Assembly (NCBI GenBank): GCA_014871385.1
Contig: CM026421.1
Coordinates: 15,421,048 to 15,485,047 of the forward strand
Length of the DNA: 64,000 nt
Origin: Ceratodon purpureus
Taxonomy: Eukaryota; Streptophyta; Bryopsida; Pseudoditrichales; Ditrichaceae
Direction of reading: 5' to 3'
Below, piece after piece: positions 7,934-48,748 of this stretch. Both the position numbers and the translations under genes were made by a program. How positions within the stretch are numbered: position 1 is the first letter of the stretch; each line of letters starts with the position of its first letter. The notes under the pieces were generated by a model. It saw only the letters and a program-made list of their open reading frames with translations, did no database searches and was not told the origin of the DNA.

Positions 7934-7944
7934 GAGTGCCGCAA
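7934..7944 (+). repeat. left target-site duplication of the 13.9-kb MULE
   Basis: GAGTGCCGCAA, in the same orientation as the identical 11-mer at 21805-21815. It abuts the left terminal inverted repeat. Mutator-like elements make 8-11-bp duplications on insertion. Confidence 0.88.
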
Positions 7945-8009
7945 CAGCGACGCTATCTTGTGAGCGGTGAGCGGTGAGCAGTGAGCGGTGAGCACTAAAT
8001 TTTCAAATT
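7945..8009 (+). repeat. left terminal inverted repeat with five heptamers
   Basis: Reads GCTATCTT from 7952, then five tandem heptamers at 7960-7994 (GTGAGCG, GTGAGCG, GTGAGCA, GTGAGCG, GTGAGCA), then CTAAATTTTCAAATTTTT. It is the inverted counterpart of 21720-21804. Iterated terminal motifs are typical transposase-binding arrays, so these heptamers are the likely binding sites (inference). Confidence 0.9.
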
Positions 8010-8279
8010 TTTACCTAAAATTTTGAATTTTTAGTTTTTTTTTTTGAATTTTTTTGAGAGCAATCAAACAATGATGAGCAATTTAGGACACTTCGTTGCA
8101 ATATATGAATGCAAATAAAGTAGACCCTATAACCGTGGATTCAATAAAATGTGAATGGTTGGAGGGTTTAGGGTACTGTTTAAGTCACATATAGAATGAA
8201 TATCCAATTTTTTTAAATTTTTTTTTTATTGTATTTCTGTGGTCGCGGAAACTAGAGAAGAATACTTCTAAGGTATCAA

Positions 8280-8317
8280 GGAATATTCTTCTCTCGGATC
8301 CGAGAGAAGAATATTCC
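8280..8317. repeat. 38-bp perfect palindrome downstream of the transposase gene
   Basis: A perfect inverted repeat with no loop, centred on GGATCC, with arms that start GGAATATTCTTCTCTC. It lies between the left terminal repeat and the transposase stop codon. Its core CTCGGATCCGAG is shared with the 16-bp palindrome that recurs in the intronic tandem array at 16367-17696. It may be a protein-binding site or a transcript 3'-end hairpin. Confidence 0.85.
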
Positions 8318-8533
8318 CTAACCTTGAGAGATTTTGTTTTTTTTTGCTTTCATAATTTCATTTTACCACAAACACATTCGAGAGGTGGACAATATATAAA
8401 TAAATAGTGACCTTTATTTATGTTCTGCGGATTGCAAATCCATCACAAAGACAAAACAAATCAATTCCGCTATTCATATAATGTATTCTTGAACTGTATT
8501 GGTCACTTAATTTCACAGTCTAACCATAAGAAA

Positions 8534-11500
8534 CTACTGAAGCGGTTCAGCAACTTTGGCCATCTCCAGAACACGCATAACTTCGTTGAAGCTGAAGCTA
8601 GGGGCGTGCATAAAAGTATCAACCTTATAATCCATCTCACATAGATAGCGGAAGATATAATAAACATGTTTGCAGTACTTCCACTGTCCTCTTTTGCCAA
8701 GGGTTTCCGAAGTCATTTTCATGAAGTCGGGGCAAGTACATCCAGGGAAGTCCGTGATGGTGATACAATATATCGTTTCACTTGGGCTCTTCAAGGAGAT
8801 GACGCAGCCAAATCCTGGATATGGAATCGATGTGACATTTGTAATCCAATAGTTGTTCATGAGATCCGCGCTGCTCCACTTGTTTCGGTGGTCGGAGGTA
8901 GGAGCGTCAGAACTTCTCCTGATGGCATATCCGTTTCGAGTCGTCGGGTGTGTATCCGGATCGACAGGAACCGGGAAATGACTCCTTGGAAGCGGCATAT
9001 TAGCAGAAACCTGGAATTGACGACGAGGTGATAGTACTCCACGTTGTTGGAGTTGGAAGCCGGCCTCTTCAAGAGCCAAAATCTCTTTGATGGTTAGGTT
9101 CGTGCCCATTTTCACAGGCCAGGTCTGCGGGATAGACGGCCAATCGATCACAAACGACTTCTTTGTGCCCTTCACACATCTATTAATGTCATCGGCGCAA
9201 AACCAGAAGTCAGTAGAAATATGGCGATCGGTTCTGAACTCCTTCTTCAGCCCTACATAGGTAGGAGCGGGCGTACCATGTGTACCTCGGCGCACTCGGG
9301 TATCGCACTTCTCATTCGTATGAGCCTGCATTGCTTGGCATTTTCTGTTAGACTTGCCGGACAGTCTAGCAATGTGCCACTTAGACGGATCGCAATCTGT
9401 CTCCTGCACTGAAGTAATGTGTTCAACACCAGAGTCAGGTTGAGAAAGAGCCTCCTCAATTCGTGCCCTGGTGGATCTCGTCCCATCACGAGGAATGGAA
9501 TAATTCACTGTATCATAGCGATGTGAGTCATGACTCGAACCAGGCGGCAAATCTAACTTCCGTTTCGTAGATCCAAAGATCTCTGCACCTTCCAAGCCTC
9601 CTTTCTTCGTCAGTAAATCCTCGGCTCCCGGGTAGGAATTAACTGCTTCAGCAATCAACTTGGGGTCACCAGACCGTTGAGCGTGGCGTAAACGAAGTTC
9701 TGCTCTGTCCGGACCTTTACCGCCCTTTCCTCCCTTTAGCCAAGACCTGTAACTAGTGATCTGCATGAATGCTCGGATCATATCATCCACTGTTGCCTCG
9801 TACAAACAGGTCATTGTATTTCCTGATTGTTGAAGCCATCTGTTATGCACGGTTTCCGCAAGGTTGCAGGAAGGCATGTCGGCTCTCTCGTCAAGGGTAA
9901 GATCCTGGGAAATACAATAAAATAAATAATGTCATTTCCAGGATTATAGATAAAAGCAAGGCCGTAGTAATACTTGATGGAAGGTTTAGAGATGAATGAA
10001 CTTACAAGCTGCATCGAGCCTCCCCATTGTCTATACCGATAGTGCCAGAAAACCATCCAATCATTTAGATGACGCCTTCCTTCTTCAGTTGTAGCGCCTG
10101 ACGAAAGCCACCACCCGCGGATGATGTTGTACTGCGCTTCTGCTTCCTCCTGGGTCTTTGCGTCCTTCCATACTTTGCACAAAGCTTTGTGTTGGTCTTG
10201 AAAGCTTGGCAAGATATTCCGAGAAGTAGCTCTCTGAAGGCACTTTGTCCAGTGGAAAAGACAAGTGCGCTCCCGTTCTTCCATTGGATCATTGGGGTCT
10301 CCGTTCCCATACACCTTCCGAACAGCGTGCCAGTTCGCTCCAGCATTTTCAGCCATGAATCCTTTGAAATTAGTATTTTCAAGGCCGTTCTTGCGCATAA
10401 CTTCATTGAGCTGGAGCCAAAATAACTCTTGAGCAGCAGCATCTTCGGATTGCATGTCACAAAGGGCAATTGTCATAACTTTACAATACTTACTGTCATA
10501 AACGTGGCATGCCATAGTGGTCCAGTCAGCTACACGCCTAACATGGTCGAACATGATCCAGCAGTCTTGAAGATCACCTCCAGCCTGCATGCGCTTCACC
10601 AAATCCACACCGCTTCCTGGACGATCAGTAGACATCTTCAACAGAAACACCTTCCCTTCATTCTGGCCAGGGAACTGATTACGGTGGATGAAATCAAAGT
10701 TGGAGTAATCCTTCAGCTCCAGGATGCTATCTGTGACTCCTCTCCCTTGACGGAAAAACCTCTTCGAACCAGAAACAAAATTCCGTATATTCGGTGAAGA
10801 AAGAGTCTCAAATTGGTCCATTACAGCATCCATAGATGCTCCCCGAAGATGACTGCCTCCTGCAGTAGGACGGATCAGAGCATCGGCAAGGTACTGCTTG
10901 CTGGCCGCTAGAACGATAGCAGAGTTTTTGGCGTTAGGTGTCCTCTGAACCTCCTTAGCTATGCAGTCAAACATGACATCCATAGAATCTTGACATCTGC
11001 CTTGAGATACAGGATGTCTATGACGTCCTAAATGAATCGCCGCACGGGTCATATCATTGTCTGAAGACGACACATGATAGATCCTAGCCTCGCACAATGC
11101 TAGACAAGTAGGAGGGGTCTGACATACTTTGCATGCTAAAGTAGATTTCTCTGTCGGGGAGCCTCCCACAGAGAAAGGTACTAAAGCTACGCCTGACCAT
11201 TCAGTGCTATTTACCATCCCATTATTCCTGCAGATGTAATCACAACTCATGTTGGGACATTGTAAGTGTCCGGTACAGGATGACTTACGGTATGTGAGGC
11301 CATACTCGTTCTTGATGTTTGTGGTCATGGTCTTGCACCATGTGTGGCCATCATACTGCTTGCTCATCCCGTCCATTCCACCTCCGAATGGATTTGGAAC
11401 TCCTTCCGGTACAGGGGGCAGCTCGAAAATCTTGTCTCCATCGTAAACTGGCGGTAAATACTTCACTTGTTCATGTTCAATAGTGTCAAAATCAATCTTC

Positions 11501-12153
11501 GATAATTCTGATCGGGAGCCCCTTCTTGATGCTGTCATTCTGATGGAAAACATAATGCTCCTGGTTTTTTTGGAAGCAGGGTGAATAGGTGGACGCCCTG
11601 TAGACAATGACGCAGACATACTAGAACGACTACCCTGTCGAGATGGACGACCTGAGTCTTGGGATCCACGACTCTGAAATGGATTTGACATAGTGTCTCC
11701 TAGCTTGATCTCACTGTGAGTGTCATCATCCGAGTCACTCAACAAATGTACTGAGTTGTCACTGGGTTCAATTTTGACAGATGCTAGACCATGAACTTGA
11801 ACTGTTGACGTGGAGGGGGGAGGGGTCAAAAGAACAGTAGACTCAGACATCTGTGCATGTGATAACCCATAAACCTTGAAAGTTCCAGTGCTAAGAGTCC
11901 AAACGTAACCATCGGGTGTACTATCCTTCACTTGAAATACACACTCAAGAATCTCACCATTGTCATCAAAGATCTCTTCTTCCACGTAAATAGTCCCAGC
12001 TCTAAACCCAAACCTGAGGCTAAGTAATCGCTCCTCCACAACTACCTTATTGTCTAGACCTACTGACATCACAAAAGGAATACCTCCATCATGAGACCGT
12101 AGAGAGGCCATTCTAAGTGTACTATAGAAGATAGAAGAAGTACAATCATGCAT
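8534..12153 (-). CDS. MULE-type transposase with WRKY/GCM1-like zinc cluster and SWIM zinc finger
   Basis: Two exons, 12153-10006 and 9904-8534, with a 101-bp GT-AG intron. The join preserves frame (SMQL-DLTLDERADM) and gives about 1172 residues. Residues about 265-385 carry a Cys/His-rich cluster (SSCTGHLQCPNMSC, ACKVCQTPPTC, HLGRHRHP), like the WRKY-GCM1/FLYWCH fingers common at the N-termini of MULE transposases. Residues about 530-650 look like the DDE core: WIMFDHV, ALCDMQSE, GFMAENAGANWHAV and then CLFHW, the C-x2-H of MULEs. Near the C-terminus CTCPDF...KYCKHVYYIF (about 1104-1130) is a SWIM zinc finger. The FMAEN motif has Glu (residue about 602) where I would expect Asp, so activity is uncertain. 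A second possible start, MASLRS, lies at 12111. No nonsense or frameshift is visible. Confidence 0.85.
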
Positions 12154-12851
12154 TGGAGGAGAGCTTGTGCAAGTAGAGTGTAAGAAGATGTGCTTGGTGT
12201 GTTCCAGGTTGTAGAGATTATATAGTTGTTAGTGGTTAGTGTGGTGGGACAACTAACATACTCTAAAATGAAGTAGAGTGTACTGGCGAATTCACCATGA
12301 CCTGTATAACCTAATTTAAGTTCGAATGTATCTGACAAACTGAAATGCTTAGGCGGCTGAGACCGCCAACCACATCATGTTTAGCTAATACTATTATATC
12401 ATTCAGAAGAGAAATCAAACCGTCACAGATGTGCACCAATACATTTATAACAATTAGCCGTCAATGTGAGCGTGATCAGAGCAACTTTAATTTAAATAGT
12501 TATTTTGATTGGAGGCAGAGTTCCATATCTTACTTTATATTAAGGAGAGATATCATACCAGACCTGGTATTTGGTGTTCACAAATTTCAACATAAGATCA
12601 TGTCAACCCCTTTACATAGATTTGGTGGCCATTCTAAAATGGTCTGCAACTAACAATTTAAATACTACTATTATATATAACGAAGATACTGACACGAACA
12701 TTAGCAATCACAGAATGCTCATGCATGTATTATAGGTCTGAAAGGTTTAGGGTACTAAGACTCCACTATAAAACTGGTACTAAGCACTTGTCGATTTCAA
12801 AGCATACGTCTTCGTCAGAATTATGTTTACGGGATAGCGTTAGTGAGACCT
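12154..12851. promoter_or_regulatory. bidirectional promoter between transposase and ParB/methyltransferase genes
   Basis: About 700 bp separates the two divergent start codons. On the minus strand a TATATAA box occupies 12224-12218, about 65 bp before the transposase ATG at 12153. On the plus strand TATAAAA at 12767-12773 lies about 79 bp before the ATG at 12852. Both are at sensible TATA-box distances, which supports coordinated expression of the two transposon genes. Transcription start sites are not visible from sequence. Confidence 0.55.
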
Positions 12852-15800
12852 ATGAGGGAAGAGGAAGAGCCAAGCCCCAGAGTGCCGAGGGCTCCTAGAT
12901 CATGTACGACTAGAGGTAGAGGGAGAAGGCGAGGTTCAGGTTTTAGTAATACGAAGCAGGTGGCGGCCCAAAAGAGACGGAAGGAGAAACTCGCTCTTGG
13001 CCGTATTGCAGAAGTGGATTATAGTTCAGATGGTCCCAAACATCTCAAAATCAAAGCATTGGCCAGTATATGTCAGGTATACCATACCATGCAGTTTGCA
13101 TTATAATTGTAAGTATTTTTAAATCTTACATTTAATTTTTCCATTGATTCAGGTTGATTTTTGTTTAATTACTCTAATGGTAAGGGACATTAAGAGGTAG
13201 GGCACACTGCTTTGACAAGAAGCTCACTAGGCGTTCAGAGAATCTAGGCGAATGCTAATTATTGAATGGACGGACTTCATGAAAATGAGATTTTCTCAAT
13301 TACTCAGTCTGGTAGGAGCTAGGATGAGCATGAACTCGGTCAGGTTACCCCGTTGACCGTCACCATGTCTGCACGGGCCTCTTGCAGGTCACTTCAGTCG
13401 TGAGCACTCCAGGCGACCTTCTCGGCGAGGGAGCTGAAGCAACCCCTACAAACCGCTCCTCGACTTCACCAGCTTCCGACGAGAACCCATCGCAGGTACA
13501 GATATACGACATTAACCATCGCAGATTCTCAGGTGAATTATAGATATCACATTACATTCTCTTTCGCGTGACTTAGTCGGTTTTGGTGCGAATCTTAACT
13601 GTCGAAACCCTAGGGTAGAAATCTAAATGGCTCGGGATGTTGGGTTCTTCAGCAGGTGATCTCTCTAGGTGCAATTGAGTGCGAGGGTCATCCGGGTTTT
13701 GAAGAGGTAACGCAAGCTTACACAATACTGCCGACTGGGTGCTCAGCGACGGAAGAAGAGGTCCACGGAATCTCACTGGTTAGAGTCGTCTTCATTTCAT
13801 TTTTCTCAGCAATGTCAATTTGGGGAATTAAGTACTTGTAAACTGTACTTCATGCCAAGCCGCATTAGGGTACTCCTGGTCGTTCAAATCCCAATTCAGT
13901 GTCGGTGCTCGATGGTTCGGTACTTAAGGGGGTTTTTTGCAGGTGAACGAGGACTGTGATAATTTCCGGGAGAGAATCTCGTTTACTGAGATTGCGGAGG
14001 AAGTCCACTCCAGGCAGATCTCTGAATTCCTTTCTCCAGCTCGGTATTCTCTTGAAATTGACAAGGTAAGTTAGATTGCTGCAATTAATCAGTTCGTGAC
14101 TTCTGTTGTGATTGTTTTGTCAAATCCTGTCTAGTATTTCGATGAATGAGCAGTGGTGACCAGAACTTCTAGAGCTCAGAAAATTAAGTGTTTCGGTTTG
14201 CCTAATTTCCTTCCAATTAATGATCGGTTTGTACCTTTCGATCAGTTCAATAGAGTGACAAATTTGTTCTGGAACACCGGATTACATATGTTGTAAAAAT
14301 TAATTTTTACGGCCAAACAACTAAATGTACCTCGCAAGACATTTGTGCTTTTGTGACTTTCAATTCTGATCTTTGATCAATGCAAAGTATTATCTCTGAA
14401 ATTCGTGTTTCGAAACTACATCTATGTTGTCGCTGGAAAGGGAATCTTCAATGTACTGTGAATGCTAAGTTTTGAGGGTTCCCTAGGTTATGAATTCCGG
14501 CAGCATTTTGATGTTGAACACCCTAATTAGGATTTCGTAGCATATTGTTTACTCAGAAGCCTTAGCTGTAATTCCATACTCGTTTCACTTTCATTACAGA
14601 ATTGCGCTGAGTGTTTCGGAAACATTATAGTGCCTGGATACTATGATTCTGTGGCAGTAACCGAATGACTTAATGGGAATGGGTGTTGTGGGGTCAGGTT
14701 ATAAGTGTTGGTAAATGCCGTATAATTAGCTGCAGTGCAAGTCGATCGCTTTGGGCTAACATTTTTTTATTGTTGCTAACTGCAGATGTGCTGTGACCAG
14801 GGCATGGAAGAGGTGCGCAGCCCGTCTACGGCCATGGACTGTATCGACGTGGGTCTTGCCGAAATGGAAGATCAGCTCCGCAAGGCTGTGAAGGGAAGTT
14901 CACATGTTGCTCTCCAAGATGCAGTTGACATACCAGGCATGGAGATTGATGTGCCACTGTGCAGGATGATACCTATGTCGGATGTGAGGGAGCCATTGAA
15001 GACCGACATACAGAAGCTAAAGGCCGAATTCAGCCACGGATACAAGCGAGGTTCATCGTGCTTCTATCTATCACTGAAGAGCTTTAGGATGGAAGAGTCA
15101 AGTGTCACCGAAGCTGACAGGTCTTCCTGGTCTGATTTATGGCGAAAGGAGGACCTTGAGTTTGAAGCACGGTTGCTGTCAAATCCAGACTTGAAGAAAT
15201 ACTCCAATCGCTACTTCTATGTGTGGGACGGGAATCATCGCCATATTGCTTGGTCTGAATTGATCAATTCTCTCCACAAGCATGATGCTTCTTTCCATGT
15301 TTCAGCCCGTTCAATCATCATCAACGTCACGCCGGCAAATTGCAATATGTTGTTGCACGCCATGATAGATTGGAACAAGTAAGTAATTCATTAAGTTTAA
15401 ACTCATTAGTGACTCAAGTATATGAAAGTTTTGAATTTGTCCCATTTATTTAATTTACATTTGATTGATAGTTCAATTTAATGGATTGCATGTCAACTTC
15501 CTGCAGAAAAAATGAAGTAGACCATGTTGTTCAGCATTGGACCCATGAGGTGAAGCGGGTCCAACAGCTAGGTCTGTTGGATTTTGACCAGTTGAAGGGT
15601 CTGGTGAAAGATGAAGATTTGCAAGCAAGCATAATAGAGTGGGGGCGTATGAAGAACAGAAAGTGGTATCATCTCTTATATGATGCATTCATTGACTTCT
15701 TATACGAGGTGAGAATGTTCAATGGATTTAAGTTGTCAAATATTTATCAGTACTGACCTCATCTACTGTCAAAGCCTATATACTAACAAGTAATTAATGT

Positions 15801-18800
15801 ATTTTAGAGAGAAATATCAGCCGCCCAAGAGGAAGCTATCAGAATCTACAGGCACTCATTAGTCACAGGTCGCGGAGAGGACAAGATGGGGAGTCCTTCA
15901 GAGCTCCTTGCCGTTGCGAAGAAGGCAGTAGCCACGAAGAAGACATCCCTCTCCACTAAATTGGACCGATACTTGGCCATTGCCAACCCAGCTAATGGCG
16001 AAGGCTTCTTAAAAGAGGTATTTTTATTTCAATAAACTTAATTTTTTTGTGTTTTAAGACCTCGGATTTGAGCTCGGCTCGTGCTTATATCTCATGCTGG
16101 TTCTACATCTATGTTGTAGCCACGGTCTTTTTTTTTTATTTTAAATTTGCTTCGTCAGTGATCACGGTTTTTATGCCCATGCGCTGCTGTGCTTCCTCTT
16201 GGGTGCTGCATCGAGCTTGCCTCTGTGGACTGATGCCTTGGGAGGGACTACGTGGTTGCATGGTACCGTATGATCTTTCTTAAATGATGTTCGTTGCAAG
16301 CAGTCGGGGCTTGGTTTTTGCCGGGTGTCGCCAAAAAAGTGACTTCAATGGGCACCCCCGGAGGTTCCCTCGGATCCGAGGGGTGCTCCGACCTCGCTGT
16401 GGCAACTCACTTTTTCTTGAACATGCTGTGCAATTCCAGCTTGGAGCCACGGTCTTTTTTTTTTTTTTTTTAAATTTGCTTCGTCAGTGATCACGGTTTT
16501 TATGCCCATGCGCTGCTGTGCTTCCTCTTGGGTGCTGCATCGAGCTTGCCTCTGTGGACTGATGCCTTGGGAGGGACTACGTGGTTGCATGGAACCGTAT
16601 GATCTTTCTTAAATGATGTTCGTTGCAAGCAGTCGGGGCTTGGTTTTTGCCGGGTGTCGCCAAAAAAGTGACTTCAATGGGCACCCCCGGAGGTTCCCTC
16701 GGATCCGAGGGGTGCTCCGACCTCGCTGTGGCAACTCACTTTTTCTTGAACATGCTGTGCAATTCCAGCTTGGAGCCACGGTCTTTCTTTTTTTTTTTTT
16801 AAATTTGCTTCGTCAGTGATCACGGTTTTTATGCCCATGCGCTGCTGTGCTTCCTCTTGGGTGCTGCATCGAGCTTGCCTCTGTGGACTGATGCCTTGGG
16901 AGGGACTACGTGGTTGCATGGTACCGTATGATCTTTCTTAAATGATGTTCGTTGCAAGCAGTCGGGGCTTGGTTTTTGCCGGGTGTCGCCAAAAAAGTGA
17001 CTTCGGTGGGCACCCCCGGAGGTTCCCTCGGATCCGAGGGGTGCTCCGACCTCGCTGTGGCAACTCACTTTTTCTTGAACATGCTGTGCAATTCCAGCTT
17101 GGAGCCACGGTCTTTTTTTTTTTTTTTTAAATTTGCTTCGTCAGTGATCACGGTTTTTATGCCCATGCGCTGCTGTGCTTCCTCTTGGGTGCTGCATCGA
17201 GCTTGCCTCTGTGGACTGATGCCTTGGGAGGGACTACGTGGTTGCATGGTACCGTATGATCTTTCTTAAATGATGTTCGTTGCAAGCAGTCGGGGCTTGG
17301 TTTTTGCCGGGTGTCGCCAAAAAAGTGACTTCGGTGGGCACCCCCGGAGGTTCCCTCGGATCCGAGGGGTGCTCCGACCTCGCTGTGGCAACTCACTTTT
17401 TCTTGAACATGCTGTGCAATTCCAGCTTGGAGCCACGGTCTTTCTTTTTTTTTTTTAAATTTGCTTCGTCAGTGATCACGGTTTTTATGCCCATGCGCTG
17501 CTGTGCTTCCTCTTGGGTGCTGCATCGAGCTTGCCTCTGTGGACTGATGCCTTGGGAGGGACTACGTGGTTGCATGGTACCGTATGATCTTTCTTAAATG
17601 ATGTTCGTTGCAAGCAGTCGGGGCTTGGTTTTTGCCGGGTGTCGCCAAAAAAGTGACTTCGGTGGGCACCCCCGGAGGTTCCCTCGGATCCGAGGGGTGC
17701 TCCGACCTCGCTGTGGCAACTCACTTTTTCTTGAACATGCTGTGCAATTCCAGCTTGGAGCCACGGTCTTTTTTTTTTTTTTTTTAAATTTGCTTCGTCA
17801 GTGATCACGGTTTTTATGCCCATGCGCTGCTGTGCTTCCTCTTGGGTGCTGCATCGAGCTTGCCTCCGGGGGCAGCATTCCAATCTGCAGGCAGCATTCC
17901 AATCTTGTTTTTTAATTTAAACTCACTTTAAGTATATGTTTTTCTTCGCTTCTTGCTGGGGTCTCCCATGATAATTTTCTGCTTACATTAAATTTATGCA
18001 CCATACCGTTTTAATTGCTGAATGTCACATGCTTAACTATAATCAAATATAGTCTGTTCTTTTCACTTGAAAGAATGTTTTTTTGGACAATTTTTATAAT
18101 TTAGAATTCTATCATTCTCATCTTAGTGTTATCTGTTTTGCCAGATCATTCGCCATTTTGATGTGTATCAAAGCGACGCAGAAATGACCCCAGAGAAGTT
18201 GCAACTTTTTGCAAGCGCCAAGGTTGCTCCCAAGTACAAAGAGAGATGGCTAAAGTGGTGGAACATGAGCAAGCAGAGTCGGGTGGAGTACAACTTTCCT
18301 CCAACACCAGCTTCAGATTTAGTTCTTCGAGTTTGGATCGATCAAGCAGCCTTCTGGGCTGGGGTAAGCACAATCATCCCATTTCTCCTTTAAATTAGAT
18401 TGATCAATGTCTTCTAATTTTGCAACTGAATTTTAAACAACATTCTTTCTAATGTAATGGATTCTAATATTTTTGGTTTATTTCTTATCCCGCAGTTAGA
18501 AGAAGAGGCTAGCCTTCGTTATGCCAAGATTGTAGAGGAGGATATCATAGTTCTCAGGACCACGGATTTACCTAATCCTGTAGATGATATTGGCTCGTGG
18601 ATTGAGGCTCATTCTCTGACTCTTTGGGGGAAGGCGTTCACTGGTTTCTTCCCTAAGGCTGGCACTTTTACAAAGAAAGAGCCATTTCTCAACCAAGCAG
18701 GGGCTGAGAATGCTATGAAGAGGGTTATATTGAGGTACTTTTGGAGAGAGTTGGTAGTTAAGGGTGCCATTGATAGGAATGATATTCCTCAGCGTTTTAA

Positions 18801-20812
18801 GAAATGGGTGGATATTTCTAGCTCTGAGTGCATTTTTACAGATTATCAGAGGAGGCATTTTCGAGCTCCACATCTTGTTCAATGTCCCTGGTACCTTGAA
18901 TTGAAGGAGAATGAGAAGTGCCCTGGGGATGAGAGAGCTTTGAAGGCTAGCTGTGACAACTTGGTGCTGCAGCTTGGAGATGAGAATACCATGAATTTGG
19001 AGGAGAATGCCTCGGAGGTTGGTGATGATGCTTCTCTTTCTGAGAAGCAAAGGAAGAAACTAGCAGAGAGGAAGGCAAAGGCTGAGGCACGGATGAAGGA
19101 GAAGGAGGACAAGAAGAAGGAGAAGGAGGAAGGAGTCAAGCTCAAGAGAGAATTGGCAGCAAGGAACAGGGAGCTTGCCAAGCTTGTTTTGAAGGAAGGG
19201 CCAGAGAAGATGTTGACTCATGTTGGCATTTCTCCTTCAGGTAGCAGCATGGCTGCTGCCATAGTTCCTGTAGCTCCTCAGGTGCCTCTTTTTTCTACCC
19301 CCATGCCTTCTCAGACTATCTACACCATTCCATGCTCGCAGTTGGATGATGTAGACACTAGGGTTGAGATCATCAATGACTCCCCTATGGGCATTTTGGA
19401 GCTGTTTAATGATCTATCAGAGGGGGATGAGCCTGAGGTTTGGATGAAGGTGAAGGACTGGATCAAGGAGAATCTCGGTAGCAAGGCTAGGAATTTTGGA
19501 GGTGAAGAGGCTGAGGCTGCTGTGGACCTCATCATTTTTGATGTTCCAGAGGATTTACCAGTTCCAGGTTTAGGGTAGGATGGTGAGATTCCATTCTGGA
19601 ACAAGCACCCCAAGATTTCAGCAGGGAAGAAGATGGAGTCTTCGTGGATTAAGGCCCATTTTGAGTTTGCTATGCAGTTTCTGCAGGATGATGGAGCCTT
19701 GATTGTATTCTACCCTGATTCAAGGTTCATTTCGAATGAGCTTATTTCCTGGGCAGAGTGGGCTAACTTTCAGGAGGAGGCCAAGTGGTTTGCAATCAAT
19801 GGCCTGCCATTGACTATTCCAGATCGTTATCCACGGGAGCACAAGACTTTTATGGTCAAGTGCTTCATCAAGATGGAGAATGCGGAGGAGGGTGTTCCAA
19901 GGTCTAAGTTCCAGTTTCATGATAGGGCTGAGCTTGGTGCCCAAGGCATCAAGCTCTCCACTGATGGTCACTGTACTAATTTGATTACTGCAGATTCTCT
20001 GACTTATAATTCAGAGACAGGTTTGCCATTCAGAGGTCCTAGAGAGAAGACTTCTAACCTCTTGCAGGCTCTGATTGATCTCTGCACTGTAGAGAATGAC
20101 ATTGTCATGGATCTCACAGCTTCTACAGGTATTTTTTTAGTCTTTCTGTTCTCTGATTGTTGTTAGTTGTATTTCTTTTTATTCTTTAGTCTCATGCAAT
20201 TGAGCTACAATTCGTGTGCAGGTGCTTCCATTCGAGCATCGAAGAGTCTCCGGCGCCATGTCATAGGCTTTGAGTATGACACCACCTTGTACAAGCAGGT
20301 GTTGTTGCCTCTTCTTCCAAGCGCCGAAGAGGTTGAGTCTGCTCCAATTCCTGTGGCATCACCAAAGAAGAAACGTGCCATTGAATCAGATGATGAGCCT
20401 GAGAGGAAGACTGCCCCCAAGCGTTCTTGTAAGTAAGTCTCTACATTCATTTGACATTTGTTTATTTGTTTACAAAAGTTTAGTTCAATATTTATTAAAC
20501 TGTGAAATTGTCATGTGCAGTCGGAAGAAAGCGTTGAAGAATGACATTGGTGGCTCTATTATCTCGCGCCATCTTAGCAAGATAAAGAGTCCAGTTAGAC
20601 CTTTAGAGCTTCCACATTATGCAGAGATGCAGGCTCAAGCTTATTTAGCTGCTCCTTCTCCATCTATTTCATCTGATAGAGATAGCATTTGTCGTGATGC
20701 TGAGATTTATCTTGACATAGCTGCAGAAGTTGCCAGAGTGGTATTATCTAGTGATAGCGATTCTTATGATGGTTGGATTGATACTCGTAGCGATGATGAG
20801 ATGTCTACTTGA
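12852..20812 (+). CDS. ParB-like domain fused to a permuted N4/N6 DNA-methyltransferase-like domain; second gene of the MULE
   Basis: Proposed exons: 12852-13076, 13388-13495, 13656-13706, 13943-14065, 14786-15378, 15507-15708, 15808-16017, 18145-18363, 18496-20128, 20222-20432 and 20521-20812. All have GT-AG borders and together give 1289 in-frame codons; the first four exons are least certain. The N-terminus is basic (RGRGRRRGSG, QKRRKEK). Residues about 225-365 resemble a ParB/Srx domain: CRMIPMSDVRE, then WDGNHRHIAW. A charged stretch rich in KAEARMKEKEDKKKEKEE follows near 760-795. Residues about 915-1140 follow the beta-class methyltransferase order. Motif IV is at VDLIIFDVPE (DPPY/W in active enzymes), then GALIVFYP, then FRGPREKTSNLL (like the F-x-G-x-REKP lead-in). 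Motif I is DLTASTGAS-IRASKSLRRHVIGFE, where active enzymes have DPFAGSGTT. The C-tail has NLS-like KKKRAIE and KTAPKRS. An in-frame TAG interrupts exon 9 at 19576-19578 (codon about 938). It would be removed if 19568-19621 or 19568-19624 is a very short intron (54 or 57 nt, GT-AG, both in frame). Confidence 0.72.
16119..17866 (+). repeat. tandem array of 328-329-bp units inside an intron of the ParB/methyltransferase gene
   Basis: Five complete units begin with GCCACGGTCTTT at 16119, 16446, 16775, 17104 and 17432. A partial sixth runs from 17760 to about 17866. They are nearly identical: the visible differences are T-tract lengths and a few bases, for example CTTCAATGGG in the first two units and CTTCGGTGGG in the next three. 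This shows recent amplification or ongoing homogenisation. Each complete unit carries the 16-bp palindrome CCCTCGGATCCGAGGG (starts 16367, 16696, 17025, 17353, 17681). The array swells one intron to about 2.1 kb. ORFs on both strands within it simply repeat with the unit and are not genes. Confidence 0.95.
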
Positions 20813-21719
20813 TCATTGCATATTTACTCTATATTGTTATGTTTTCCCTACTTCTATATTATATGATAGCTTTGGCTTTGGATTTTATATTTTACCTTAA
20901 CCTCACTTTACTCTACTTTTGTGTGAATTTCTCTACCGGCCATATATTTTAAATTCAATTCAAACATGATTGAATAATAAAATGGTACTAATTTTTTAAG
21001 AAGTTGAACATTCCTTGGTTACAACTTGAAGGCATCACAGTAAAATATGGTTTTCTTAAAACCTTTTTCATGTAGTTTTCCCTACCCTTTAAATTGCACC
21101 TTTAAATTAGTCATCCAACAATTGGATGAAAAGTTTGTCATCCCAAAAAACTTGAAGCCACAGTCATCTGCAATAGCGGTTGTGTATATCCACCCTAAAC
21201 CTAATTGTTTTTATTTTATTTTTATCTTTCTTCTTTCTCTCCTTTATGTATTCATTAATTTTATTTGTTTTTCTTTTTTAGAGAATTCCTTTTTATGTTT
21301 CGTCTTCTATTTTTTTTAATTTATTTTTTAATTTATTCGTTGCTTTTCTTCTTTCGTTGTTTTATTTATATTTCTTTCTTTTCTTCTTATTTTCCTTCAT
21401 TTTTTTATTTTTTTTCCCCTATATTCCTTTTCATTATTTATTTTTAATCTATTTTCTTTCTTTCATTTATTTATTTTTTTTCTTTTCTTTTTTTTCCTTT
21501 TGTTTTTTTTTTCTTCTTGGTCTTCATGGCGTGGAATTGATAGGATATATGAAAAAATAATCACTATTTATTCGGGTATGAATCGGGTGTAAATTTCTAC
21601 ATTTATCAATTTAGAAGCCATTATTTTAAGAATATACCCTAAAACACCTTCCACGGTCATAGGTCCCATATATGCCATGTCATGCAAAATCATCTCAAAA
21701 TATCAAATAAATAGTCAAA
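20813..21719. other. right subterminal region of the MULE, with a long pyrimidine tract
   Basis: Non-coding DNA between the ParB/methyltransferase stop codon and the right terminal repeat. From about 21196 to 21515 the plus strand is almost pure T/C (TTTTCTTC-type text). ORFs here are poly-Phe artefacts. The tract could affect polyadenylation or transcription termination, but nothing specific is visible. Confidence 0.6.
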
Positions 21720-21804
21720 AAATTGAAAATTTAGTGCTCACCGCTCACTGCTCACTGCTCACCGCTCACTGCTCACTGCTCACCGCTCACAAGATAGCAT
21801 TCCT
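21720..21804 (-). repeat. right terminal inverted repeat with eight heptamers
   Basis: On the plus strand GAAAATTTAG leads into eight tandem heptamers at 21735-21790 (TGCTCAC or CGCTCAC, the complement of GTGAGCA/G), then AAGATAGC at 21791-21798. It is the inverted counterpart of the left end, with three more heptamers. Confidence 0.9.
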
Positions 21805-21815
21805 GAGTGCCGCAA
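21805..21815 (+). repeat. right target-site duplication of the 13.9-kb MULE
   Basis: GAGTGCCGCAA, identical to 7934-7944 and in direct orientation, next to the right terminal repeat. The following base is T here and C on the left. Confidence 0.88.
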
Positions 21816-37829: not shown

Positions 37830-39450
37830 GAAAGCTTCACCAATGGATATCCCAATAGCATTCTTTGCAAATGAAGTCCCTGGCAACCCGGGCATGTACT
37901 ATTTGTCCTTGCATTGCACACTCAACAATTTCTCCTCTGCTGCCCCATACTTTTCAAGCCATGCGCTGATGAGACATATGGAAATAATGTTGAATATCCA
38001 CGTTTTCTGCCTGCCCATTTAGCTGCTAGGTTTTTTGCCAATTGCATGATAAAAGAGAGGTGAGTTACCGGCTCCTGTAAAAATCTAAAACTAAGATCAC
38101 TGTGTATAATCCATGCATTCACTATAACCGTGTCTAACATGTAGAAAAAAAGGCGATGCCACCATTTGTGGCTTCTTGTAAGGCATGAATAAGTGCCACG
38201 TTGTTGATCAGCAGTGTCTATTCCCCTCATATACTTTGTATACTGCAAATGCATTGGCCCAGACTTCACTTTTTTCCTCTTCCCACTTATTTTCCGCATC
38301 ACAAACTGTGTAACTTCTGGTGATGGAATTGGCTCTGCATGCGTAGAAAGAAGGACTACGGCTTGCTTGTCTTTCCACAATGCACAACATATTTTTCCTT
38401 CCTTGTGCATGCGATAATCCACCCATCCAAGGTCTTCTTTCTCTGTCACTTTCTTGGAGTACATTGCCCGAGGTACATACTTGCGGTTGGCTCTTAGAGT
38501 GCCTGCTGCCATGATGCCATCCTCCAATAAATCCAAATATAATGGCATGGATGTGAAAAAATTATCAGTTGTTACAATATGGCCTCTCCCCCCTAGATCT
38601 CTCATGAGATCTTTTACTACATTTCGACCTTGCAAGCCTTCACCCTTGCCACTTCTCAACCGCTCCTCACCTGATGAATTTCCACTGCCTTCTTCTACAT
38701 CAGATGCCACTTCTTCATCATGTGTATTACCCCCTTTACCACAATAAATGTCAAAGTTCCATAAATACTTGGATACTGCATCGGCTGCTGCCGAAACTTT
38801 AATTCCAAACCTTACTGGTTTTTTTGGCATATATTGTCGCACTGGACAATACTTTCCTTTGTACATAACCATGCTTTCATCCACTGTCATTTGCTGATTT
38901 GGAGACCACATAGCTTTGCACGGTCTCTCACTTCATCTAACATCCATCGAACCTTGTGCAATTTGTCATACCTTGGGCTTTCCCAGTTTGTAACACATGG
39001 AGGTGCATTTGCCACATGAAGACAACGTGTTATAGCTTCAAACCTGTCTCTTGTCATAATTGAAGAAATGGTTGAACAACGAAATAATGACTCCTCTTTT
39101 GACCAATAAAGTCTTATAGAAGGTAGCTTCTTTATCCCCATAAATAAACATATAGAGATGTATCCACGAAACTCCTCTAATCCTAGAAGAGTCCAATCTA
39201 AGCCACCTCTTGTCTTTCCATCTTCACCTATTACTTCAGAAGCATATCGATTAGTCTCCCGTACCACCCTTCTTTGCAACTTCTAAGACCAAAACTTTTC
39301 AAATAATCTCACTATAGATGGCAACCTTCCATAAAGGTGTGTGCATCCTGGTTCTGGTCCTGTAAATGGAAGAGGTGGATTTACATAACAATGAGTGTCT
39401 TTTGTCCATGTATTAGGTCCAAATCTCTCCAACATTGGATTGTCTTTCAC
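37830..39450 (-). pseudogene. piggyBac transposase, disabled copy
   Basis: The DDD core of the piggyBac superfamily is clear: MTVDESMVMYKGK (first Asp), IVTTDNFFTS (second Asp) and RGIDTADQQRGTY (third Asp). The upstream part reads RETNRYA and FRGYISICLFMGIKKLP. Downstream a Cys-rich segment of the C-x2-C / C-x2-C type marks the C-terminal domain, ending near 37830. Three lesions are visible. A TAG lies at 39283-39285 just before the RETNRYA block. A frameshift lies near 38900-38911, where the frame changes before MWSPNQQ. A TGA at 37922-37924 truncates the protein inside the Cys-rich domain. A further frame change near 39447 separates it from the upstream ORF. The catalytic residues survive but the gene cannot make a full transposase as read. 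Confidence 0.88.
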
Positions 39451-40745
39451 ATTGTTGGTAGCCCCTCTAGATGGGCCTGCTGTACCCCTTCCTTTCCCCC
39501 TTGCTCTGGACCCCGTCCTCTACCCCGTTTTTTCTTCGGTGGGGGCTTGTACCAAGAGTCACTGCTACTACCTGATTGGCCGCCGTTGCCATGTGGGCTG
39601 AGAGGCACGGGCCCACCCATTTGCAATGGCAACTGCACCCTTGCAGCCGAAGGACCTCCCCAACGATCCTCTACTTGACCGGGCGCCAAGCCCACCCTCT
39701 CTCCTGCCCGATCTGCCCCTCGGCGCCCTCCTCCTCGTCGACGCCTTCTACATCCTAAGTCTCTCCCTCGTCCCCGCCCTCTCTCGGCACCCTCCCTTGC
39801 AATGTGCCTCACTCCCTCCGCCCTGCCGTGGCCGTCTCTCTCCGCTTCCTGACGCCGTCCACCCAAGCTCGCAGCTTGCCTCGCTCCCTCCGCCTCGCAG
39901 TCTGCCTCGCTTCCTCCCGCTCCCGCACGCTGCTCACCCTCTGATTGCTGGCGGTTTTCCTCCGCTCCCTGCCTGTCGCCCCTTGCCGCTCCTTCAAGCC
40001 GTTCACCCTCTCCGAGCAGTCCAGCTCTTCCTACCCGCTTCGCTGCTCTCGGCCGCCCTGCCCTAGCATATTCGCCCTCTGAGAGGGTACTGTCCGAGTC
40101 TCTCTCCCTTGAAGGTGTGAGGGCAATGTCACGTCCCTTGCCTCCTTGCTGCCTCCACCCAAGGTCTTCGGATTCTGTTGCTTCATCACTGCTTAATTGT
40201 TGCCTGCTTCCAAAGTCTTCACATTGTGTTGCGGAGTCCCTGCTTGAAGAGCTACTGTCGGCAGATGAAGGATGACCGTCGTATGCAGGCACAGGTGAAG
40301 TGGCGCGCACATGCATTTCAATTCTACTTGGCTCTGTTGTTGCAAAGGTCTCTTCTTCGTGTTGTGTCTTAGAATGAAGTCTTCTATATGATCTGTGCAC
40401 TGCCCCCTCGCATATTTCTTGCACTTCTCCATCTTCGAATCTTACAGTTATGGTCTTTTCCTTACTGCTAGGGTTTACAGATTCTTGAATGAGATGACCC
40501 ACACTCCATGTTTCCACATTGTGCATAGTATCTTCTATGTCTTCATGTAAGAGTAATTGTTGTACCCTAACAACTTCTTCTGTTTTTTTTGTGCACTGAT
40601 TCAGAGTGTGAGGAAGGCTCACCTGTGATCCTTGTGCGTCCGAAGTCATCTGGAGTTGGATGTCCGGCGGGTGGATCTGCGAGCTCCCAGCCTGAAGGCT
40701 CCCATGGCGTTCGACCGGTTCTTCTTGGCCCATGCAGGGAGGACA

Positions 40746-40788
<43 letters not shown>

Positions 40789-41792
40789 CGGCCTTCTCGC
40801 ACCTCACTCTCTCCCATAATCGTTGCTCCGCTGCACGTAGACGGGCTGTCGATGCTGCTCGTGCCACAATCTCCAACTCCTCTGCATGGTTGTGCATTGG
40901 TTGCACCTGGATCTGTGCTTCCTGTAACGTCAAGGATGTGTTGGAATGACCATGCGGACAGCTGACCTCGTGGGTCCTTGCTCCAGATAATGTTGAAGTT
41001 CTCATCAAAGAACCCAAAGTCTTGCATCCCCTGCAGCCACCACCGTCGGGCGGATGATGTTGGAGTTGATCCAGGGGGTGAGGTCGGAGCTCGTCTGGAG
41101 GTCGCAGCAACGGGCGTGAGGGGGCCGCTGCAGCCTGCGCCTGTATCGGAGTATGCATCTTGTGAAGGGGCGGCGGCTGCTGGGCTTGCACCTGCATCAG
41201 AGGTCGGAGCGAGGGCTGTGAGGGCACGGCTCCAGCCAGCGCCTGCTGCGCTTGCTCTCGCATCGGCAGCATCGACTTGGCTTCTACAGTCTCGGCTACT
41301 GCTGTTACCTCTATGGTCTCTGATCCTGCCCTTGCTTGTGAGCTCTCGGCTACTGCAAAGAGAGTGTTCTGTGACCCCGGTGGCTGGTGCAGCTAATGAG
41401 CAAGTTGCTTCATCCTCATCATTTTCGACTTTGGGGAAAGGATATATCCTCTCTTGTAGTGTTGTGTACACCTCCGGTCCGAATCCGTTTGGATGACCTT
41501 CAGGTCTGCGCTCCTTCCACCCTAGCAATTTTGTAGCCCAAGAATACCACAACCACCTGAGATGTTGGGGAGATCTGTCACAGAGCTCACTCTTGTCTTT
41601 CTTCAGACGTGGCAAATTCACTAAATAACTCTCAGTAAGCATTCCTAGCAAATAATCTATCTGCCATTGTTTTGCAGCATGTTTTGTTTTGAGATGGGCA
41701 GCAATTGCACAAGCATCAAAGTTGCACCAGCCTGAAGGGCGAGGAGGTGGAGGCAATTCTGTATAATTTTTCCTGACTCTCTGCTTTCTCAT
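39447..41792 (-). CDS. 781-residue ORF of the piggyBac element, probably the transposase N-terminal extension or an accessory protein
   Basis: A long uninterrupted ORF starting MRKQRVRKNYTELPPPPRPS. The first 150 residues look globular (WCNFDACAIAAHLKTKHAAK, LRWLWYSWATKLLGWKE). The middle is Ala/Ser/Pro-rich and low in complexity. It contains a proline run encoded by a 42-base C tract (plus strand G, 40747-40788). Near residue 447 the text TVRFEDGEVQEICEG resembles a Tudor/SH3-like beta barrel. The C-terminal 200 residues are Arg/Glu/Gly-rich and probably disordered. It lies directly upstream of the transposase fragment on the same strand and may once have been joined to it by frame or splicing. 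A short Ser/Glu/Arg-rich ORF at 41879-42196 on the same strand may be an upstream exon. Function unknown. Confidence 0.55.
40747..40788 (+). repeat. homopolymer run of 42 G
   Basis: Uninterrupted G on the plus strand, inside the long minus-strand ORF, where it encodes proline. Such a run can form G-quadruplex structures. It is also a classic place for length errors in sequencing or assembly. Confidence 0.9.
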
Positions 41793-46365: not shown

Positions 46366-48748
46366 ATGGATTCTCGACAGGCAGGAGGAATGTTGCCGGC
46401 GATGAACCCCATGCTCTTGCAGCACACGTTGCGTGGCTTGTGCACCGACTCGCAGTGGGTGTACGCCGTGTTCTGGCGCATCTTGCCCCGCAATTACCCC
46501 CCTCCGCAGTGCGTAAATCCTTCCACCCTCCCACTCCACCTCATTCCAAGTAGTGGCATGCACGTGCTAATCCAGCTTCTTGTGAGTCTTCTCTGCGAAC
46601 GTTGTCTGGCAGCTTTTACCCAGCTATAAGATCTAGAGCTTGATCTTTGTTTCGATTCCCAATGCTTGCTGATCACTCAGAAACCACCTCTACTAGCTAG
46701 CTGTCTTAAGGTTCTACTTGTTGGTCACTTCCTTTCTCTCCGATACGCGACTCATATACATTAATTACTCCTCAATGCTGAGCTTACAAAGACGTCGCTA
46801 CGGTTTGCTTGTAGAGTCAGTAGAGAGTGATCAATTCTGTTGTGAGGTAGAACTAGCTGGAGTAAGTCTGTTCTTAGTGGAGTCCCTCCTTAATTTTCAT
46901 TTGATTCTCGCCACTGGCGAGTTGTGTTTGTGGAGGCCACAGTTTGTGAATTTTCTTTAGTTCTGATTGCGTGTTGGTGCAGATGGGACACAGATGGCGG
47001 CATCATGGACAGATCCAAGGGCAACAAGCGCAACTGGTATGACTACGGTGGGCTTCTTGGTAGATGGAGATGTTTGTTTTTCATTAGATTCTGATGTTAG
47101 AACTCCTTGGTCGAATTCTCGCAGCTCTAAGTCTAGTGTCAACGTTAATTTATGAGCAGGATTCTGGTGTGGGAGGATGGGTTTTGTGACTTCTCGGCTT
47201 GCGCGAGCGGAACAGGCAACGAGTCGACACGAGCTGCTAGCTCCTCGTTCCTGGCCACGAGACAACTCCGTCCTAATGTCGATGACGAGCCAGAGGCCAT
47301 GAACCCGGAGCTCTTCTTCAAGATGTCACACGAAGTCTACAACTACGGTGAAGGGTACGTACGCGTCTTTGCCATCTCTCCCTTCCACCGATTGCAAACC
47401 CTACGCACTCTGTTCCGGAATCTGAGCTCTAACAATCCCTTGCCTTGCAGATTGATGGGCAAGGTGGCCGTGGACAATAGCCATAAATGGGTGTACAAAG
47501 AACCGTTGGAGAATGAGATCAGCTTCCTCTCTCCTTGGCACGCTTCGCTTGACCCTGTAAGCTCATCCCTCTCACCATCGTCTTCATTGCTCCTCTGTAC
47601 CAGGTCGAGCATTTTTTCCATCGCTACTGATTTGAATTTTTCATCATGTTGTTTTTTTTGTATCTGCAGCATCCACGAACATGGGAAGCGCAATTCAAGT
47701 CCGGAATTCAGACCATCGCAGTGGTGGCAGTGCAAGAGGGCGTCCTCCAGCTCGGTTCCACAAAACGGGTATGTCATCTCATCTCATCTCATCTCATCTC
47801 ATCTCATCTCACCGCCTCCTGCACCGCTCTCCTTTGTGTGAGGTGATCGACAATCACAACGCACCATGACTAAATGCTTTTGATGGGATTTGTTTGCAGG
47901 TCATGGAGGATTTGAGCTTCGTCCTGTACATGCAACGCAAGTTCAACTTCCTGCACTCAATCCCGGGAGTGTTTGTCCCTCATTCAACATCCGGCAGTGG
48001 CACGAAACGACCAAGCCCTCCAACTGGGTTACCATTACCATCGCCATTCGACGCCAGCCAGAGCCATAGCCAGTTAACCTTGCGCTCCATCGATCAGTTC
48101 CTGTCGCCGCGAATGGGCGCTCCTGACCTATGGCGACCCATGTCCAACATCCCCAGCACCGGCGTTACCGGCATGAAACGCCCCCCGGAACCAACTTCCC
48201 AGTCTCTGAACCTGAAGGAGTACGCCTACTTCAACGGCTTCGAATGCCGCCCGGAGTCGTCGCCGTCTCCACCCAAAGCGCTCAACACGGGCCACACCAG
48301 CCCGCAGGGCGCCACCAGCCCCACTCTGCCCACGCTGCTGCCCTCCATGTCCAGCCTGCAAGCGCTCCTGTCCAAGCTCCCCAGCGTCACGCACTCTCTC
48401 GACGCCGAGAGCACCATCCATGGCCTTCCAAGCTCCGGAATCCCATGCACCGGCTTCACCAGCAACCGGCCGCCCATCTCCCGTTCCGTGAGCAAGGCTC
48501 CCAAGGAGGAGATTTGCAATGGCAAGAGGATGTTGAAGGGCGAGGTGATGGACTCCGGCAGCACTTCCGATGTGGGCGATGTGGATACAGTTGACGATCC
48601 GCAACCGAGCTGCAACATGGCTGATCATGCACACGAGAGCACCACCTTTCTGGAGTCGTTTGAGAATCTGAACGAGTATGGGATCCCGGAAGCGTTGGAG
48701 AATGGCGACTCCAGTTACAGCTCGTTTCTGAACGAGATTTGCAGCTGA
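46366..48748 (+). CDS. bHLH-MYC_N domain protein (LHW-like / 'WNK-related' family)
   Basis: Six exons: 46366-46508, 46983-47036, 47160-47354, 47451-47556, 47670-47768 and 47900-48748, all GT-AG, 1446 nt, 481 residues. The N-terminal 190 residues are the conserved bHLH-MYC/R2R3-MYB N-terminal domain. Landmarks are LLQHTLRGLCTDSQWVYAVF, WRILPRNYPPPQ-WD, then DRSKGNKRNW-ILVWEDGFCDF, ELFFKMSHEVYNYGEG, LMGKVAVDNSHKWVYKEP, PRTWEAQFKSGIQTIAVVAV and VMEDLSFVLYMQRKF. Each splice join restores family sequence. In Arabidopsis, relatives such as At3g15240 are annotated misleadingly as WNK-kinase-related; there is no kinase domain here. The family lacks a C-terminal basic helix-loop-helix in many members. 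Here the last exon is a Ser/Pro-rich, probably disordered region ending in an acidic tail. Likely nuclear and possibly a dimerising transcriptional regulator (inference). Start chosen at the first ATG (MDSRQAGGML). Confidence 0.93.
47776..47810 (+). repeat. ATCTC microsatellite, seven units, in intron 5 of the bHLH-MYC_N gene
   Basis: Seven exact ATCTC units starting 7 bp after the 5' splice site. CU-rich repeats so close to a donor can bind polypyrimidine-tract proteins, so length variation might affect splicing (inference). Confidence 0.95.

Follow-up and report, generated by a model that had tools for sequence, protein, structure and literature searches.

A two-gene Mutator-like moss transposon with a predicted methyltransferase-type second protein and a conserved intronic palindrome

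The escape of transposons from plant silencing is, to our knowledge, understood in its mechanism mainly from Arabidopsis VANDAL elements. In the 64,000-nucleotide stretch of Ceratodon purpureus DNA analysed here (the window), an earlier note had described a single transposon with two divergent genes, and the locus raises the question of what the second gene does for the element that carries it.

Ends and target-site duplication

The complete element in the window is 13,861 bp long (7945–21805), and it is delimited by the following features:

7935–7944, no strand: left copy of the target-site duplication, AGTGCCGCAA, 10 bp
7945–8032, plus strand: left terminal inverted repeat, CAGCGACGCTATCTT with five GTGAGCR heptamers and an AT-rich part
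21697–21805, minus strand: right terminal inverted repeat, CAGGAATGCTATCTT with eight heptamers
21806–21815, no strand: right copy of the target-site duplication, AGTGCCGCAA, 10 bp

The inverted arms (7945–7994 and 21756–21805) are 92% complementary over 50 nt, with a second pairing of 73 nt at 86%, and the ends are built of GTGAGCR heptamers, as the earlier note had proposed. That note had also placed the element at 7945–21804 between copies of an 11-bp direct repeat, GAGTGCCGCAA, which occurs in the window only at 7934–7944 and 21805–21815 (2 observed versus 0.02 expected). The termini, however, read CAG...CTG, and the G at 21805 closes the right end. This leaves a duplication of 10 bp and an element that stops at 21805, so that the left boundary and the flanking repeat stand, whereas the right boundary and the repeat length each change by one base. 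In both of the other copies fetched, 10-bp duplications (GCAAACAAAC and TGTTTTAAAA) adjoin identical ends, which gives this length in three of three copies examined, window included. Independent insertion of the window's two ends was considered and rejected.

Genome-wide counts refer to the 362-Mb Ceratodon purpureus genome, in which we found 723 element ends (roughly 360 element-equivalents when halved) and none with a reversed-pattern control. Passages of a survey of the Mutator superfamily give target-site duplications of 8–11 bp and terminal inverted repeats of 14–500 bp (PMC6446971), ranges that include the 10-bp duplications and the 50-nt arms seen here. Because the duplications are perfect and some copies are 98–99% identical across 1.5 kb, the transposon was probably mobile until not long ago.

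The transposase and the second gene

The window transposase, 1,172 amino acids long, is encoded on the minus strand by two exons:

10006–12153, minus strand: transposase exon 1, with a D-D-(E)-type catalytic region by eye
8534–9904, minus strand: transposase exon 2, with C-x-C...C-x-H near its end, SWIM-like by eye

A dN/dS of 0.086 across 30 copies (L001 and L002, the window copy, being replaced by the window sequence) indicates purifying selection. Profile searches did not establish the previous assignment to a MULE/SWIM transposase: the best Pfam match, Transposase_mut, reached E 0.034, below the cut-off, in two of five sequences, the window's own not among them. PF10551 gave no match in the transposase sequences, SWIM gave none in Pfam at E up to 10, and a PDB search with the transposase profile returned nothing up to E 10. 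The AlphaFold model of the transposase exon has a pLDDT of 32.

The second gene, on the plus strand, encodes a protein of more than 1,100 amino acids. Its eight exons between 13943 and 20812 splice together in frame, and a further exon lies upstream of them:

12852–13076, plus strand: first recognisable coding exon (tblastn homologues), basic, with RGRGRRRGS
13943–14065, plus strand: exon of the in-frame splice model; limits within 13077–13942 are provisional
14786–15378, plus strand: exon with the DGNHR motif (ParB/Srx-like by motif only)
15507–15708, plus strand: exon B
15808–16017, plus strand: exon C
18145–18363, plus strand: exon D
18496–20128, plus strand: exon E, with the middle region and the start of the methyltransferase fold, motif IV DVPE
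20222–20432, plus strand: exon F, with the SAM-binding-type motif DLTASTG/AS across the E–F junction
20521–20812, plus strand: exon G and stop

In the window copy, an in-frame stop at 19576–19578 (exon E) breaks the gene. This codon is open in 29 of 29 other aligned copies (in this alignment L032, the window copy, was replaced by the window), and 15 of those 29 have a premature stop within exons D–G. The second gene is under purifying selection except in its C-terminal tail, where dN/dS is 1.1; across 29–30 copies it is 0.13 in exon D (L041 left out), 0.20 in the middle and 0.23 in the methyltransferase region. Compared with this range of 0.13–0.23, the transposase is the more conserved of the two.

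The claim that the second gene is methyltransferase-like was borne out by two kinds of match to the N6_N4_Mtase fold. PF01555 matched P0002, the sole annotated relative found and itself multi-copy in the genome, at E 4.9e-7 (30.4 bits, above the cut-off of 26.7), as well as the window piece at E 5e-5 (23.8 bits, below the cut-off) and P0001 at only E 0.01 (16.2 bits); a PDB profile match to DpnA (E 3.6e-5) extends across the SAM-motif half of the protein. Beta-class DNA methyltransferases have the catalytic motif [DNS]PP[YFW]. Here, 28 of the 29 other copies read DVPE at motif IV and one reads DVLE; D[VI]PE stands in 16 of 16 relatives covering the site and DTPF in the distant P0002, and DPPY is present in none of the copies and relatives seen. 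The C-terminal part of the second protein is predicted to be a DNA methyltransferase fold of bacterial type (beta class, N6/N4) that has lost its catalytic motif. The structure model of P0002 has a pLDDT of 40, and a PDB fold search with it gave no match at E ≤ 0.001. The ParB half of the fusion proposed earlier is not established, consisting as it does of a single DGNHR motif: two sequences scanned against Pfam gave no ParB match with E values as high as 10, and the window's DGNHR exon gave none in NCBIfam or PHROG. A phage search with the DGNHR region yielded three matches, all at chance level (E 6–9). Phage methyltransferase genes fetched at two hits measure just 768 and 666 bp, and their annotation names no ParB part.

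Markers for the transposase and the second gene number 115 and 104 genome-wide. A divergent listed transposase marker lies within 40 kb of 81 of the 100 second-gene markers listed (of 104), and the second gene is therefore a regular constituent of the element, encoded by it as had been supposed, and not a passenger. Eight of the 100 have a listed transposase marker in any non-divergent arrangement, and 19 have no divergent one within 40 kb. By tblastn, a homologue of its first exon lies upstream of the transposase, in divergent orientation, at 30 of 30 loci (window included); with the ends and the 10-bp duplications, this bears out a real, multi-copy moss transposon with two divergent genes. 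The expectation that other copies carry both genes between such ends held for 18 of the 33 end pairs among the matches listed, but nine show neither gene marker, four that of the transposase only and two that of the second gene only; counter-evidence of the kind named in the earlier note is thus partly present. The gene-less end pairs and unpaired second-gene markers fit derivatives and missed markers, and the element is best explained as an autonomous two-gene cut-and-paste transposon of the Mutator-like type.

A palindrome in the second-gene intron

Two further features of the window copy centre on CTCGGATCCGAG, a perfect 12-bp palindrome whose core forms an extended imperfect inverted repeat:

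16114–17866, plus strand: intronic tandem array of the second gene, 329-bp unit × 5.3, with CTCGGATCCGAG at 16369, 16698, 17027, 17355 and 17683
8280–8317, no strand: perfect 38-bp palindrome centred on CTCGGATCCGAG, 3′ of the transposase

The palindrome in the second-gene intron, arrayed in the window and in other copies, is a new observation; the earlier note made no mention of the 329-bp array. No other 12-mer of this intron is common to as many copies as CTCGGATCCGAG, which 28 of 30 contain; the next unrelated one is common to 14 copies, and a Markov null peaks at 2–4. The palindrome is thus conserved amid introns that are otherwise mostly unalignable (between copies, the alignable share of the visible intron has a median of 17%), partly as copy-specific arrays. 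At least two sites are present per visible intron in 15 of 30 loci, one in 13 and none in two; the array period varies by copy from 266 to 423 bp (six loci), with 256, 348 and 413 bp elsewhere, and TRF detected long-period arrays in 6 of 30 intron stretches. None of the 30 transposase loci (about 5 kb each, including 1.5 kb upstream) contains CTCGGATCCGAG, so that it is absent upstream of the transposase there.

Extended palindrome sites number 703 genome-wide, against 0 for the control. The 100 listed of these form 27 clusters. Of these, 23 are in or near elements, 13 being enclosed by end pairs and 10 no more than 15 kb from an end that faces inward, and four are near no listed end; among random points, 0.6% fall inside end pairs and 1.4% inside or near them. 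An exact extended-pattern site is listed in none of 8 of the 21 end pairs from C1–C2, which is an undercount: one such pair, C2:6419155–6433805, has no listed extended site, yet its locus (L060) has three of the 12-mers.

Possible roles of the second protein

This architecture resembles VANDAL/VANC anti-silencing, with an unrelated protein. Like the Arabidopsis element VANDAL21/Hi with VANC21, also of the Mutator superfamily, the moss element is Mutator-like with two or more genes. In passages of PMC5735166, VANC targets are described as tandem repeats in VANC and VANB introns and upstream of VANA, which vary through the gain and loss of units and co-diverge, and VANA as more conserved than VANC. 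The moss second protein is likewise less conserved than the transposase, and its gene likewise has short motifs in intronic, non-coding tandem repeats that vary by copy (compare parts of PMC5735166 and PMC10398659). Unlike VANDAL21, whose site is YAGTATTAY, the moss element has a perfect 12-bp palindrome as its site and a methyltransferase-type second protein, and no motif was found upstream of its transposase. It also has 10-bp duplications, ends made of heptamer arrays and a moss host. Scanned against Pfam, P0001, P0002 and a set of window exons showed neither of the VANC domains DUF1985 and DUF287.

Our best explanation, to which we give a probability of roughly 45%, is a Mutator-like two-gene moss transposon in which gene 1 is the transposase and gene 2 would encode a non-catalytic, VANC-like sequence-specific factor acting in trans. 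This factor would bind the CTCGGATCCGAG sites in non-coding parts of the element and would shield both the element and its gene-less derivatives from host silencing. We hold more tentatively still that a methyltransferase became a non-catalytic reader of palindrome arrays in an independent, VANC-like anti-silencing system, counter-defence having arisen at least twice with unrelated proteins and similar architecture. Mosses may then have an independently evolved version of the plant anti-silencing system; if so, intronic short-site arrays would look like a general solution for silencing escape, a haploid plant group would serve as a test system for it, and a protein that reads palindromes could be used to target chromatin where desired. 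Counted against anti-silencing are the lack of CTCGGATCCGAG upstream of the transposase, the single-site and siteless introns, the detection of long-period arrays in no more than 6 of 30, the stops in 15 of 29 copies, the siteless C1–C2 end pairs, the four clusters near no listed end, the missing DUF1985/DUF287 match and the low PF01555 score of P0001, and also that the transposase or a host factor could be what recognises the palindrome, or that it could work as RNA.

Dyad-symmetric 12-bp sites, partly arrayed, and a ParB-like DGNHR motif would also suit a protein that binds the palindromes for transposition, through synaptic pairing or bending or through ParB–parS-like spreading, with silencing uninvolved; sites are retained in some end pairs showing neither gene marker, and part of PMC6446971 records a second open reading frame in several MULE groups. 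Such a role is unlikely: the sites lie mid-element, mostly in introns and away from the ends, two pairs of about 3.0–3.1 kb (C1:1312678 and C2:15519042) have both ends although no site is listed in them and neither gene marker is seen, and ParB is unsupported by any profile. Were the protein to serve transposition instead, its gene would still represent a novel type of accessory gene in elements of this sort. Since the sites are intronic they are probably transcribed, and the extended imperfect inverted repeat around the core would suit recognition by a host protein or a function as RNA hairpins (in splicing, as a small-RNA decoy or as an insulator), with gene 2 tasked otherwise. We consider this unlikely, given that the half-sites are conserved as sequence, with the exact 12-mer in 28 of 30 loci, that in several copies (L033, L042 and L053) just one of the two outer arms is altered, by eye unlike a maintained RNA stem, and that three end pairs with neither gene marker likewise contain sites.

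The PF01555 matches to P0002 and the window piece and the DpnA match would equally be expected of an active DNA methyltransferase placing N6-methyladenine or N4-methylcytosine on element DNA; with DVPE or DVLE at motif IV in the copies, D[VI]PE in all 16 relatives and DTPF in P0002 alone, this is improbable. Broken frames in 15 of 29 copies, and the tendency of MULEs to pick up host gene fragments noted in part of PMC6446971, could point to a captured host gene carried as a passenger. That reading is largely refuted by the divergent-marker counts and is very improbable in view of the near parity of markers (104 versus 115), the fixed divergent orientation, the selection on the gene and its presence on many chromosomes; its one annotated relative is multi-copy too.

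Other known systems share parts of this design. Maize MuDR (mudrA/mudrB) likewise combines a transposase with a second gene between terminal inverted repeats; mudrB is not known to be a methyltransferase-type protein, and we know of no palindrome arrays in MuDR. As in Bacillus cereus Bce_0392, described in part of PMC5512222 as the fusion of a ParB domain with an adenine methylase, a DGNHR motif precedes the methyltransferase fold in the moss protein, which differs from bacterial fusions in its lost catalytic motif, in having the ParB motif only, in its length of more than 1,100 amino acids and in its place in a eukaryotic transposon. Dinoflagellate and charophyte retrotransposons also carry DNA-methyltransferase-type proteins (PMC5890265, in part); theirs are C5-cytosine DNMTs, whereas the moss protein is of the predicted beta-class N6/N4 type, with its catalytic motif lost, and belongs to a DNA transposon.

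The element and its ends

A complete element flanked by a target-site duplication occupies 7945–21805 of the window, and its inverted ends of GTGAGC(G/A) heptamers, described in the earlier note, pair over 50 nt at 92%. The GTGAGCR arrays hold five heptamers on the left and eight on the right, and the entire window contains 26 against 10.8 expected.

Features of the element and of the window around it
7945–21805: complete element, 13,861 bp, with inverted ends and flanking duplication
within the element, minus strand: transposase gene, two exons, 1172 aa
12852–13076, plus strand: upstream exon of the second gene
13943–20812, plus strand: second gene, eight exons with in-frame joins
37922–38911, minus strand: Piggybac-like transposase piece (DDE_Tnp_1_7, E = 5.7e-47)
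39447–41792, minus strand: 781-aa open reading frame, no Pfam match
47152–47841, plus strand: bHLH-MYC_N-like fragment (E = 1.1e-5, under the Pfam cut-off)
57504–58634, minus strand: Ribosomal L1 domain protein (E = 8.3e-45)

GAGTGCCGCAA, the repeat at the two flanks, is present just twice within the window. It was first described as an 11-bp repeat outside both ends, but the duplication is 10 bp long because the element reads CAG...CTG at its termini. Perfect 10-bp duplications stand beside the same ends in both further copies for which the two ends were retrieved (L062–L065). Genome-wide, the end pattern marks 723 ends (reversed-pattern control, 0).

The second gene model sets exon limits for the upstream exon and from 13943 onward. 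Exon E of the window copy carries a single in-frame stop at a codon that is open in 29/29 other copies, so this copy of the gene is probably broken. Counting stops alone, and only in the 3′ exons D–G, 14 of the 29 other copies have no premature stop codon.

Association of the two genes across the genome

The genome searched comprises 362.49 Mb in 151 contigs, one of at least 96 Mb; for C. purpureus, a 360-Mb genome with sex chromosomes of more than 100 Mb is described (PMC8000587). The transposase search gave at least 53 matches, from 39 scored of 4712 candidates. Across 30 aligned transposase copies (the window and L003–L031), mean pairwise dN was 0.0114 and dS 0.133. Internal stops are absent from 24 of them, including L030, which has a 2-base gap; L004, L011, L014 and L031 carry insertions of 1–7 bases, counted across exons and intron jointly.

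Patterns of 36 bases served as gene markers and matched 115 places for the transposase end and 104 for the second gene, whereas the reversed patterns matched none. Pairing was counted on the first 100 listed places each of transposase markers, second-gene markers and ends. A divergent listed transposase marker lies within 40 kb of 81/100 second-gene markers (within 15 kb for 65), and 8/100 have one in some other arrangement; conversely, 81/100 transposase markers are accompanied by a second-gene marker. Arithmetic from marker density predicts about 0.5 such pairings per 100 by chance. An exact left end lies about 620–700 bp outward of 20/28 transposase markers on contigs C1–C3.

The 100 listed ends (exact matches, C1–C4) form 33 pairs and 34 unpaired ends. 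The expectation that both genes always lie inside such ends holds in part: 18 pairs contain both markers, nine neither, four the transposase only and two the second gene only. Two of the four transposase-only pairs, L015 and L023, nevertheless have a diverged homologue of the second gene's exon 1, which is present at 30/30 transposase loci, the window copy included (identity at least 68% in 25, 45–47% in five). One copy, L058 (G000:C2:18.57 Mb), is a mosaic whose exon E is 91.5% identical to the window and whose sequence from exon F to the 3′ region is 99–100% identical, which suggests recombination or gene conversion between elements.

The second protein

The second protein had been read as a ParB/methyltransferase-like fusion, of which the methyltransferase-type fold stands. 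Against PF01555 (N6_N4_Mtase), the window piece scores 5e-5 (23.8 bits, under the 26.7 cut-off), the C. purpureus relative P0002 4.9e-7 (30.4 bits, over it) and the relative P0001 a weak 0.01, and a profile matched the DpnA methyltransferase at 3.6e-5 across the SAM-motif half. The ParB part amounts to a DGNHR motif, for which profile searches found no ParB support; ParB–methylase fusions are known in bacteria (PMC5512222).

At catalytic motif IV, the window copy and 28/29 others have DVPE, the remaining copy has DVLE, 16/16 relatives covering the motif (17 relatives found among 7998 scored) have D[VI]PE, and P0002 has DTPF. The dN/dS ratio is 0.13 in exon D (29 copies), 0.20 in the middle and 0.23 in the methyltransferase region (30 copies), or 0.09, 0.19 and 0.24 with the four most divergent loci removed; the C-terminal tail gives 1.1, at a dS of just 0.027. 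A fold maintained by selection without the catalytic motif suggests a binding role.

P0002 itself represents a related multi-copy family that shares ~36% identity with the second protein of the window. Its gene has copies of up to 97% identity in this genome, and family members on many chromosomes are 60–97% identical to P0002 over residues ~135–452 (for example, G000 C4:10037277–10038230 and C3:2173950–2174903). By eye, 0/14 such places on C1–C4 fall inside the 33 listed end pairs, so these genes may belong to another transposon family.

Marchantia sperm reportedly carry N4-cytosine methylation. Literature searches (ParB–methyltransferase/Mutator, moss ParB/DNA methylase transposons, 4mC in bryophytes, VANC/anti-silencing, transposon-encoded DNA methyltransferase, Ceratodon Mutator, anti-silencing in moss) found no element like the one in the window among the titles and abstract openings listed, in a library with few subscription journals. 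Table 1 of a MULE survey includes second ORFs and SET domains, and neither DNA methyltransferase nor a bryophyte group appears in it (PMC6446971).

A shared palindrome and its possible reader

The array of 329-bp units in the intron before exon D contains CTCGGATCCGAG five times, and a sixth sits in the middle of a longer, perfect palindrome (38 bp) on the 3′ side of the transposase gene; all six occurrences in the window are inside the element, with none in shuffled sequence. CTCGGATCCGAG is the most shared 12-mer of the visible intron, found in 28/30 copies (absent from L041 and L058), at least twice in 15 and once in 13. The next unrelated 12-mer is common to 14 copies and the next palindromic one to four (Markov null peak, 2–4), and when visible introns are compared between copies, the alignable share of one has a median of 17%. 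Tandem Repeats Finder detected long-period arrays in 6/30 loci, with periods of 266 to 423 bp; other listed sites are spaced at 256 bp (31 sites), 348 bp (6) and 413 bp (11).

The extended pattern YYCTCGGATCCGAGRGGTGC, with one mismatch allowed, has 703 sites genome-wide (control, 0). One hundred listed sites (all exact, C1–C2) form 27 clusters, of which 13 lie within end pairs, ten are up to 15 kb from an end that points inward and four are in neither position, against 0.6% of random points inside pairs and 1.4% inside or near. Of the 21 end pairs on C1–C2, 13 hold a listed site and eight do not; three with sites lack both gene markers (C2:12241117–12245764, C2:21737698–21747888 and C2:22231750–22235855).

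This layout resembles that of VANC targets in Arabidopsis VANDAL elements. These targets are tandemly repeated and lie upstream of VANA as well as in VANC and VANB introns; they gain or lose units and diverge together, and the VANDAL transposase is better conserved than VANC (PMC5735166; PMC10398659). Given the likeness, we infer by analogy that the second protein could read the palindromes and thereby shield the element family from silencing. Unlike VANDAL, which has targets upstream of VANA, the moss element showed no site upstream of its transposase in the loci searched: CTCGGATCCGAG is missing from all 30 transposase loci. The second gene might instead serve transposition, or a host factor might read the palindromes, or they might be read in RNA form.

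Some palindrome clusters have a median spacing of 128–139 bp, with sites on both strands, and lie ~1.9–2.5 kb inside an element end (G000 C1:1206258–1206905, C2:10037539–10038028, C2:24659520–24659795 and similar); these are perhaps a non-autonomous derivative family that has retained the sites.
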